Shown here piece by piece: positions 1 through 1,237 of a stretch of 6,477 bases of DNA; the stretch's first letter is position 1, and each line of letters opens with the position of its first letter. The notes beneath the pieces are model-generated. The model had not been told where the DNA came from. It searched no databases and was given only the letters and a program-made list of their open reading frames with translations. This DNA comes from an uncultured Pseudoflavonifractor sp. (GTDB lineage Bacteria > Bacillota_A > Clostridia > Oscillospirales > Oscillospiraceae). Position numbers and translations under genes: made by a program. Location of the stretch: contig CANPNN010000075.1 in NCBI GenBank assembly GCA_947575475.1, positions 1-6,477 of the forward strand. The letters are read 5' to 3'.

Positions 1-56
1 GTGTCGGGTTCTTTTTCCTCTGCCAAGTCAAAAAACAGGGTTTCTAAGAAATCCAC
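1..56 (-). CDS. 5' end of a leftward small gene controlled by the XRE repressor at 121 (partial)
   Basis: Only the first 18 codons are inside the window. They read M-D-F-L-E-T-L-F-F-D-L-A-E-E-K-E-P-D from a GTG start at 56-54 with no stop before the edge. The start is chosen because a strong ribosome site (GGGAGGTGA, 69-61 on the minus strand) lies 7 bases upstream; the nearby ATG at 58 runs into a stop after four codons. A perfect consensus promoter (108-80) would give a leader of only about 17 nt. The gene is divergent from the XRE gene at 121 and its control region carries two copies of a palindromic operator, so it is very probably that repressor's target. The hydrophobic then acidic start is loosely reminiscent of the start of the 87-aa protein at 974, but it is too short to assign a family. 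Function unknown. Confidence 0.7.
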   Translation of the reverse strand, partial: MDFLETLFFDLAEEKEPD

Positions 57-60
57 ATAC

Positions 61-75
61 TCACCTCCCAGGTGA
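61..75. promoter_or_regulatory. Second operator copy at the transcription start, module 1
   Basis: TCACC-N5-GGTGA repeats the core of the 85-101 palindrome, with centres 25 bp apart. It covers about -2 to +13 of the leftward transcript and contains the ribosome site of the leftward gene. The stretch between the two copies (71-90) is itself GGTGAT-N8-ATCACC, so half-sites are laid out in alternation. Co-operative binding by two dimers is plausible but not shown. Confidence 0.78.
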
Positions 76-79
76 TTAA

Positions 80-108
80 ATTATATCACCCACCAGGTGA
101 TTTGTCAA
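80..108 (-). promoter_or_regulatory. Consensus sigma-70-type promoter of the leftward gene
   Basis: On the minus strand the -35 is TTGACA (108-103), the spacer is exactly 17 bp (102-86) and the -10 is TATAAT (85-80), a perfect match to the vegetative consensus. Expected start of transcription is near 73. The -35 overlaps the ribosome site of the divergent XRE gene (AAGGGGG, 107-113). A promoter this strong normally needs a repressor, and a palindromic operator fills the spacer. Confidence 0.88.
85..101. promoter_or_regulatory. Operator copy in the promoter spacer, module 1
   Basis: The sequence ATCACC-N5-GGTGAT is a perfect 6+6 bp palindrome lying between the -35 and -10 boxes of the leftward promoter and just touching the -10. 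A protein bound here would exclude RNA polymerase. The likely ligand is the XRE protein encoded from 121, as is usual for divergent Cro/C1-type repressors; this assignment is inferred from position. Confidence 0.8.
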
Positions 109-120
109 GGGGGTCATTTT

Positions 121-381
121 ATGTTTTCACAAGAAAAGTTTTCCCTCCGACTGCGTGAACTGCGAAAATCCCGCAAGGAAACGCAAAAGGCTGTAGCAGA
201 TGCCATTGGAGTCAGCGTCAACCAAATCAGCGAGATGGAGAAGGGCACAAAAATCACCTCCCTTCCAAAGCTCTGCCTCCTCTGCGACTATTTCCACGTC
301 TCCGCCGATTATCTTCTGGGCCAAACGGATGACGGTCCCCATCCTTCAACCCCAAACACGGCCCCAAACATAAACACATAA
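121..381 (+). CDS. XRE/Cro-type helix-turn-helix repressor, 86 aa (module 1)
   Basis: A short single-domain DNA-binding protein of the HTH_3 (Cro/C1) family. The helix-turn-helix spans about residues 21-42 (T-Q-K-A-V-A-D-A-I-G-V-S, then N-Q-I-S-E-M-E-K-G), followed by the family's usual close with F-H-V-S-A-D-Y-L-L-G at 58-67. The last ~20 residues are a Pro/Thr/Asn-rich tail with no recognisable domain. The ATG at 121 is preferred over the in-frame GTG at 97 because AAGGGGG (107-113) sits 7 bases before it and the GTG lies inside the operator. It is divergent from the leftward gene at 56 and probably represses that promoter through the two TCACC-N5-GGTGA palindromes. Its own promoter is not obvious; it must overlap the operators, so autoregulation is likely. 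The family call is safe; the exact target is inferred. Confidence 0.9.
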   Translation: MFSQEKFSLRLRELRKSRKETQKAVADAIGVSVNQISEMEKGTKITSLPKLCLLCDYFHVSADYLLGQTDDGPHPSTPNTAPNINT

Positions 382-471
382 GGGCCGATATTCCCCTCGC
401 CCAGCCCTTGACCTTAGGCCCTTAGGACCCTGGGGCATGGACCCACCCCATCAAAACACCAACCGTCCGAA

Positions 472-503
472 CCCCGGCGGCGTAACGGAGTAAGCCGCTG
501 GGG
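472..503 (+). repeat. Hairpin A: 10-bp stem, 12-nt loop
   Basis: CCCCGGCGGC (472-481) pairs with GCCGCTGGGG (494-503) around the loop GTAACGGAGTAA. The single non-Watson-Crick position (G476 with T499) is a G-U wobble in plus-strand RNA and a C-A mismatch in minus-strand RNA. Confidence 0.7.
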
Positions 504-541
504 TAAATAACCTTCCGCCAGAACAGCTCCGGGGAGTTTCC

Positions 542-598
542 AAAGAGGGGGTCCAGGGGGAGAGAGAGTCGAAACTCTCCCCCCTTGGGCCCTTTCTT
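542..598 (+). repeat. Hairpin B: long GC-rich stem with small bulges
   Basis: The core is GGGGGAGAG (556-564) with CTCTCCCCC (575-583), perfect, around a 10-nt loop. The stem continues outward: A555-T585, CC (553-554) with GG (587-588), GGG (549-551) with CCC (590-592) and AAAGA (542-546) with TCTT plus T595. C584 and T586 are bulged. The imperfect positions T552/G589, G548/T593 and G547/T594 are all wobbles in plus-strand RNA. The A542 end may fray. Confidence 0.65.
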
Positions 599-605
599 GG
601 GGAGT

Positions 606-643
606 CTGAGGGGTCATTCTTTCGGGAAAGAATGATCCCTCAG
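606..643 (+). repeat. Hairpin C: 18-bp near-perfect inverted repeat
   Basis: CTGAGGGGTCATTCTTTC (606-623) and GAAAGAATGATCCCTCAG (626-643) are complementary at 17 of 18 positions, with only GG between them (in RNA the tip would open to a four-base loop). The one imperfect pair, G613/T636, is a G-U wobble on the plus strand. No T-run follows on either side, which argues against a standard intrinsic terminator. Confidence 0.8.
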
Positions 644-671
644 GGCTTGTCCACATTCCAAGGTGGGAACA

Positions 672-881
672 TTACCGTTGATCCGACCGCCCCACTAAGT
701 AATCAATACTGACCCCATAAAAATCCGCCATGTGGATCAGAACGGACACCGTCGCCTCCCGCTCCCCCGCTTCATAGCGCTGATATGTTCTGCTTGTGAT
801 CTCTGTCGCCTTAGCAACAGCCGCCTGAGTGAATTTCTTTTCATTCCTCAGAAGGAGGAGGCGTTCTGAAAATGTTGCCAT
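672..881 (-). CDS. XRE/Cro-type helix-turn-helix repressor, 69 aa (module 2)
   Basis: A minimal HTH_3 protein that is almost nothing but the DNA-binding domain. The helix-turn-helix is at about residues 18-40 (T-Q-A-A-V-A-K-A-T-E-I-T-S-R-T-Y-Q-R-Y-E-A-G-E), and the end reads F-Y-G-V-S-I-D-Y-L-V-G-R-S-D. The ATG at 881 is chosen over a longer in-frame start at 986 because AGGAG (896-892) lies just upstream and homology to the family begins there; the longer version would run through the operators. It is divergent from the 87-aa gene at 974 and shares that gene's control region, with two GACCGTTYGGTCGTA operators. The recognition helix (S-R-T-Y-Q-R-Y-E) differs from that of the module 1 repressor (S-V-N-Q-I-S-E-M-E), in line with the different operator. 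Repressor and autoregulatory roles are inferred from layout. Confidence 0.9.
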   Translation of the reverse strand: MATFSERLLLLRNEKKFTQAAVAKATEITSRTYQRYEAGEREATVSVLIHMADFYGVSIDYLVGRSDQR

Positions 882-897
882 AATTTTTTCTCTCCTC

Positions 898-926
898 TTG
901 ACATAGACCGTTTGGTCGTATATAAT
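898..926 (+). promoter_or_regulatory. Consensus sigma-70-type promoter of the 87-aa gene
   Basis: TTGACA (898-903), a 17-bp spacer (904-920) and TATAAT (921-926), a perfect consensus. Expected transcription start is near 933, giving a leader of about 41 nt. The -35 lies immediately next to the ribosome site of the divergent repressor gene (892-896), the same arrangement as in module 1. Confidence 0.9.
906..920. promoter_or_regulatory. Operator copy in the promoter spacer, module 2
   Basis: GACCGTTTGGTCGTA lies wholly inside the 17-bp spacer, with palindromic arms GACC and GGTC. It repeats at 938 with one base changed (T to C). Likely bound by the XRE protein encoded at 881-672, by position. 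Confidence 0.8.
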
Positions 927-937
927 TGCCGTAAGGC

Positions 938-952
938 GACCGTTCGGTCGTA
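938..952. promoter_or_regulatory. Second operator copy in the leader, module 2
   Basis: GACCGTTCGGTCGTA, a direct repeat of the 906 copy exactly 32 bp away (about three helical turns, so the same DNA face). Extended by C937 it forms the stronger palindrome CGACCG-TT-CGGTCG (937-950). It sits at about +6 to +20 of the transcript. Confidence 0.8.
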
Positions 953-973
953 AACAGTGAAGGGGGAACTTCC

Positions 974-1237
974 ATGTCAGACACAATTCTCGCCCTATAC
1001 CAATATGTCATGAAAAACGATCTCTTTCTCCAATACATCGACGACCCCGAGGAATACCAGTCCAACCTGACCTGCGCCCAGGCCGCCCGCGACCGCCTTC
1101 AGGCCCTGCTGAACGCCCCGGAGAAAAAGGAGCTGGAGCTCTTCCTCGACATGAAGACCGTCGCGGATTCCCTGGAGCTGGAGGCCGCCTTCACCTCCGG
1201 GCTGGCCGTCGGGCTCCGGCTCCTCCGGCTGGTTTAA
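974..1237 (+). CDS. Small protein of unknown function, 87 aa, controlled by XRE repressor 2
   Basis: ATG at 974 preceded by AAGGGGG (960-966) at 7 bases. The protein is mostly helical in appearance and soluble, with no signal peptide. Residues 1-30 include a Tyr/Leu-rich start and an acidic patch (D-D-P-E-E-Y). Residues 48-60 are charged (A-P-E-K-K-E-L-E-L-F-L-D-M). The end A-A-F-T-S-G-L-A-V-G-L-R-L-L (71-84) matches the pattern 'AF-x-x-G-x-x-x-G-x-R-L' that I associate with the DUF6809-like small Clostridia proteins often found beside XRE genes; this match is from memory and is tentative. It is driven by the consensus promoter at 898-926 under double-operator control, so it is probably silent until the repressor is relieved. 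Its stop codon shares two bases with the hflX stop on the other strand. The biochemical role is unknown. Confidence 0.85.
   Translation: MSDTILALYQYVMKNDLFLQYIDDPEEYQSNLTCAQAARDRLQALLNAPEKKELELFLDMKTVADSLELEAAFTSGLAVGLRLLRLV

Follow-up and report, generated by a model that had tools for sequence, protein, structure and literature searches.

The window, which means here the whole stretch of 6,477 nucleotides from an uncultured Pseudoflavonifractor sp. (contig CANPNN010000075.1), begins with two small repressor/target modules. In each of them a gene for an XRE-type helix-turn-helix (HTH) repressor is divergent from a target gene, and target 2 belongs to the protein family DUF6809 (PF20648). The features of the modules are listed below.

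1 to 56, minus strand: target 1, 5' end of a DUF6809-type gene; GTG start at 56-54, 18 codons, then the window edge
61 to 75: candidate operator 1B, TCACC-N5-GGTGA, overlapping the target 1 ribosome site
80 to 108, minus strand: target 1 promoter; -35 TTGACA at 108-103, 17-bp spacer, -10 TATAAT at 85-80; 12/12 match
86 to 100: candidate operator 1A, TCACC-N5-GGTGA, within the target 1 promoter spacer
121 to 381, plus strand: XRE1, 86 amino acids, HTH_3 (9.1e-13), recognition helix SVNQISE, no further domain found
672 to 881, minus strand: XRE2, 69 amino acids, HTH_3 (1.2e-13), recognition helix TSRTYQR, no further domain found
898 to 926, plus strand: target 2 promoter; TTGACA at 898-903, 17-bp spacer, TATAAT at 921-926; 12/12 match
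906 to 917: candidate operator 2A, GACC-N4-GGTC, within the target 2 promoter spacer
938 to 949: candidate operator 2B, GACC-N4-GGTC, just past the expected transcription start
974 to 1237, plus strand: target 2, 87-amino-acid DUF6809 protein (PF20648 at 5.9e-08, 33.9 bits, above the cut-off of 27)

The original prediction, made from the sequence alone, had described two modules of one design, and our analysis agreed: both targets have a perfect TTGACA-17-TATAAT promoter whose spacer contains one palindrome, and another lies close to the start. A promoter scan of all 6,477 bases returned one further site, matching at 9 of 12 positions, and no pair of palindromes with identical arms appeared in 2000 base shuffles of either intergenic region. 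As also predicted, the repressor's ribosome site, read from the sequence, overlaps the target's -35 in module 1 (107-113 on 103-108) and abuts it in module 2, where it lies directly behind that -35 on the minus strand. The two operator codes and the two recognition helices differ from each other, as had been claimed. To this description we add that target 1 is cut by the window edge, and that the second operator overlaps with the ribosome site of this gene. The residues past the start codon in its visible peptide (VDFLETLFFDLAEEKEPD) are identical to those of the DUF6809 protein at locus L063, and 48 of 56 bases match the DNA of that locus, over a stretch of 18 codons that is too short for a hidden Markov model test. 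This match suggested that both window targets most likely belong to one family, DUF6809.

The original prediction had proposed a search of related genomes for the same design, and this search recovered the XRE/promoter/small-gene arrangement in more than 100 modules. A search with XRE1 listed 64 proteins at E ≤0.001, the window's own copy counted. A genome scan with XRE1 relatives kept 80 loci, by their titles largely from Oscillospiraceae and other Clostridia. A divergent DUF6809 hit was found at 47 of the 80, all within the 50 best and none in the weaker 30, and wider DUF6809 profiles later added L033 and L071. Our DUF6809 profile A2 matched 24 of the 61 genomes from the family to which genome G001 belongs, 9 of 299 from its phylum at large (G001 counted) and all 24 genomes picked for holding a module, with up to 12 matches per genome. 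In total, 308 loci gave 268 DUF6809 hits, some places being captured more than once, and 199 of these hits had a divergent XRE within 500 bp. They correspond to 147 distinct modules, or 148 when window module 1 is counted. The distance from start codon to start codon was 58-100 bp in the non-redundant set, one split gene excepted. The DUF6809 promoter matched at 12 of 12 positions in 75 of 148 modules and at 11 or more in 119, while shuffles gave 0 and 0.6 per 148. A profile of 107 modules placed the XRE ribosome site (G, A/G, G, G) directly behind the reversed -35. The share of DUF6809 genes with an XRE is biased upward, because loci L017-L096 were found via XRE1; in the set found through DUF6809 first, a divergent XRE was present at 17 of 30 loci and absent at 13. 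Some of the pairings (e.g. L293 and L317) may be chance neighbours. At L119, DUF6809 stands next to another type of XRE (MDTRGAIAARIVQLCEERNITPN) with AGTGATATATCACT-like palindromes, so the design may have more than one origin. Judged from these sequence comparisons, the window switches appear to be two members of a large gut-bacterial family. No paper containing DUF6809 or PF20648 was found in the open-access literature searched (subscription journals and preprints were outside this search), and this repressor-DUF6809 family is apparently unstudied.

Candidate operators were also sought family-wide. In each intergenic region we searched for two palindromes with agreeing arms, one of them centred in the spacer, and scored them against shuffles that preserve the promoter hexamers. 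Of the 148 modules, 93 had a palindrome-pair score beyond the 99th percentile of the shuffles and 115 one beyond the 95th. After filtering on promoter, operator score and spacing, 104 of the 148 modules were kept for covariation analysis and 44 were dropped. Operator similarity followed the six residues of helix 3 after the rest of the XRE was removed, with a partial r of 0.336 for odd-length operators (n=72) and 0.425 for even-length operators (n=32). None of 1000 permutations reached these values in either length class. In the odd class, XRE pairs less than 50% identical outside the helix region had a mean operator similarity of 0.546 when at least five of the six helix residues were shared (13 pairs) and of 0.265 when at most two were shared (1145 pairs); the even class contained no such distant pairs sharing at least five. 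Locus L269 combines the XRE2 helix TSRTYQR with the same CGACC half-site. Close XRE pairs (n=102) were 0.55 identical in the exposed columns of the helix and 0.79 in the remaining columns, and random five-column sets reached the helix-column variability in 0.2% of cases. These results suggested that recognition helix and operators change together across the family. In L128 and L129, the two operators within one module differ (GACC-type versus GCCC-type), and these modules look as if caught between two codes.

Exchange of a whole cassette was seen at module 2, in comparison with locus L196 of genome G313. The exchanged block and the repeat that it includes are as follows.

569 to 1252: exchanged block (repeat, XRE2, operators and DUF6809), 3/684 mismatches against L196, 99.6% identical
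544 to 643: dispersed intergenic repeat between the modules, with an inverted repeat at 606-623/626-643

L196 contains an XRE2 gene identical to that of the window, and the hflX gene to the right of the block is only 84% identical to the window there. This difference indicates that the module 2 cassette moved as a block, a single case that rests on G313, taken as a metagenome-assembled genome. One of the three differences falls in the -35 (TTGGCA). L128 and L129 share this hflX site; their hflX is 86% and 84% identical to the window, and their XRE2 stretch only 58% and 62%. In the window, hflX is convergent with target 2, their stop codons overlapping at 1234-1237, and the block ends at most 15 bases from this junction. 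Groups of loci with shared neighbours also bear different codes, as in eight loci with CTCAGT, CTCAAT, CCCAATA, GTACCTT and CCCCTTT half-sites; these groups were built by single linkage, which may merge neighbouring sites. The original prediction had called the region between the modules a structured gap, which we corrected to one that contains the dispersed repeat. This repeat is about 100 bp long (window 544-666) and its inverted repeat is near-perfect. It matched 24, 7, 6 and 6 times in four of six genomes and 0 times in the other two. Some matches lie less than 1 kb from DUF6809 hits in G001, G235 and G313, and the repeat forms the end of two G313 contigs.

Two origins had been offered for the pair, and the landing of two related elements side by side fits our data. 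Duplication in place found no support, for XRE1 and XRE2 are only 38% identical (24/64) and each has closer relatives elsewhere: XRE1 has a database relative at 89% and, with DNA context, L127 at 74%. The idea that the pair travels as a unit was not borne out, since kin of module 1 (L127 and L017) and of module 2 (L129) had no partner in the DNA examined, about 3.3 kb each around L127 and L129 and 12.2 kb around L017. Two true modules were present in 2 of 50 XRE1-found loci, a third listed locus being read as one split gene. Some clustering exists, as six pairs of DUF6809 hits share a contig at a distance of 4 to 8 kb. The suggested insulation of the two circuits found no backing either, as co-resident modules in one genome were no more different than expected.

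Both genes appear to be under purifying selection. In 12 hand-picked close pairs, the ratio of nonsynonymous to synonymous substitution rates (dN/dS) was 0.01-0.17 for XRE in all 12 and 0.13-0.50 for DUF6809 in the 11 computable, exceeding that of XRE in 10 of 11; these values are rough, several dS values being above 1. The relation between the two proteins bears on the idea that DUF6809 counteracts its own XRE as an antirepressor. In SinI/SinR, a small protein binds and inactivates a repressor, and a similar bistable switch would suit two adjacent genes of similar size, an XRE without a detected sensor domain and a small helical DUF6809. XRE and DUF6809 similarities over 101 modules correlated (r 0.472), as they would for binding partners, although common descent gives the same. 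Against this, partners also re-assort: in L050/L054, L052/L054 and L061/L052 the XREs agree at 88-93% outside the helix region and the DUF6809s at 22-28%, and DUF6809 also occurs without a divergent XRE. We consider an antirepressor role unlikely.

For the DUF6809 protein of target 2, the predicted structure contains helices only (predicted local distance difference test 95.7), and a Foldseek search with this model returned no match at E ≤0.001. Members are acidic, with a mean net charge of -6.0 (n=101). Of 55 A2 members, 53 match PF20648 at E ≤0.1, whereas 9 of 13 inspected hits without XRE look by eye like another subfamily, of MRDTLENLYFG type. This type stands without a divergent XRE at L098, L102, L112 and L117, and genome G005 holds several copies. 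Three gut phage records contain a relative of the XRE-less kind, which in the two annotated ones lies close to genes for DNA methyltransferase and amidoligase. These phage records, together with a fast-evolving small product and a very strong promoter beneath an adjacent repressor, would agree with DUF6809 being a toxin or abortive-infection effector held under transcriptional repression. The comparison with known defence and phage proteins argues otherwise. PADLOC models gave three single matches among the 55 members (best E 0.017), which did not place the family in any model, and PHROG gave single weak matches only. We also surveyed the flanking genes (115 proteins from 20 loci, long open reading frames chosen by a simple rule), and few of them matched PADLOC (five models, with a top count of 5, equal to that of DprA in Pfam). 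The label "defence-like" in the original prediction thus lacked a convincing PADLOC match, and an effector role seems to us rather unlikely.

The architecture resembles a phage immunity switch of the lambda/434 kind, in which a CI repressor faces a divergent early promoter. Shared features are the XRE-type HTH repressor, the divergent strong promoter and the paired operator-like palindromes overlapping promoter elements. The same pattern also occurs in phages: in 21 viral contigs (L324-L344) TCACC-N5-GGTGA sits within the spacer of a perfect promoter, and 12 of them have an adjacent XRE-type repressor on the opposite strand; a corresponding search with the module 2 pattern found none. Those of these repressors that were inspected carry a recognition helix other than that of XRE1, so helices of different kinds may recognise a single half-site. 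Viral contigs also hold 16 distant relatives of XRE2. The window modules differ from a CI switch in that the product is DUF6809, the next gene is hflX, no phage genes were recognised by eye in the window, the XREs have no detected C-terminal domain, and modules are multi-copy in genomes. By analogy, the circuit would work like a phage immunity switch, though the window modules lie outside a phage.

This likeness raises the alternative that the modules are prophage leftovers, i.e. degraded lysogeny switches kept by chance after decay of the phage. Besides the viral contigs, the flanking proteins speak for it, as 24 PHROG families were matched among the 115 at E ≤1e-10, including three endolysin families with one member each. 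Other searches and the state of the genes speak against it. No relatives of XRE1 or target 2 were confirmed in viral contigs by a search reaching close relatives only, and one XRE-linked DUF6809 had no match in 50,697 phage records. The flanking proteins fall into 58 Pfam families, and the 25 listed are largely housekeeping, the commonest including DprA, GidA, LuxC, MreC and topoisomerase. Moreover, both genes are under apparent purifying selection and the promoters remain at consensus, and we judge chance survival of phage remnants to be quite improbable. Among other known systems, entry 7t8i of ICEBs1 ImmR is among the PDB sequence relatives of both XREs, whereas the window XREs show the HTH only and no genes of an integrative and conjugative element were recognised by eye in the window. 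Type II toxin-antitoxin systems form one operon, and here the XRE and DUF6809 genes are divergent. A study of Cluster A mycobacteriophages (PMC6550527) describes repressor and operator specificities that diversify into several types, with the immunity phenotype following the C-terminal region and not the HTH domain. The diversification of repressor/operator specificities is shared, whereas here the recognition helix tracks the operator, and does so outside phages.

From the anatomy, the recurrence, the consensus promoters, the paired palindromes, the helix-operator covariation and the one cassette exchange, we consider it probable that the modules are autoregulated, repressor-gated and horizontally exchangeable cassettes with diversifying DNA codes. 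We infer dimer binding, repression, autoregulation and relief as the steps. A minimal XRE dimer (about 75 amino acids, HTH only) would bind both palindromes, that between -35 and -10 and that at about +1, and would thereby shut the near-perfect sigma-70 promoter of the divergent gene for a small, acidic, helical DUF6809 protein. The XRE most likely represses its own gene too, because its 5' region is the same operator DNA. Since the XRE has no sensor domain, relief would probably come through its own loss (proteolysis, dilution or entry of the cassette into a cell without cognate XRE) or through titration. The family is multi-copy in Oscillospiraceae, and its copies would carry many different codes.

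Several observations weigh against this reading. As many as 33 of 148 operator pairs failed to exceed the 95th shuffle percentile, and 69 of 268 DUF6809 hits had no divergent XRE within 500 bp. The promoter signal of the XRE itself was weak, TANNNT being present at -30 in 20 of 106 and at -35 in 18 of 104. With the helix removed, the rest of the XRE still correlated with the operator (0.124, 1/1000; 0.271, 5/1000). In the 102 close pairs, a comparison dominated by one cluster of 17, the most variable XRE column was 22, outside the helix, and in 5 of 15 clusters the helix was no less conserved than the other columns, being less conserved in the remaining 10. A mutual-information scan also scored columns outside the helix, which means that ancestry was incompletely removed. 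Finally, the operator pattern of one module was searched across each of the genomes G034, G306 and G235. In favour of the reading, it occurred without mismatches at the module only in G034 and G306, and at the module and one other place in G235. Near matches exceeded the reversed-pattern control, with 34 places versus 4 in G235 and 6 versus 0 in G306 (forward) at up to one mismatch, and 18 versus 4 in G034 (forward) at up to two. The best sites thus lie at the cassette, and further binding sites, forming a wider regulon, may exist beyond it.

The family poses the question of which selection favours new DNA-binding specificities in a switch built around DUF6809. One answer, which we offer as a speculation with a low chance of being right, is that the cassettes form a polymorphic self/non-self DNA code in gut Firmicutes, in which a resident XRE would keep shut only those cassettes or phage operators that share its type. 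If so, incoming DNA of another type would fire its perfect promoter on entry (zygotic induction), or operator copies of foreign origin would titrate the XRE already present and switch on the DUF6809 of the resident cassette. The joint change of helix and operator across the family, even where the chromosomal site is the same, would then be explained by selection for rare types. Provided that binding obeys the codes, the family would be a natural library of about 100 repressor/operator pairs (104 modules) on one scaffold of about 75 residues, most of them with a near-consensus promoter, from which the XRE recognition code could be read as nature has written it and candidate orthogonal parts could be drawn.

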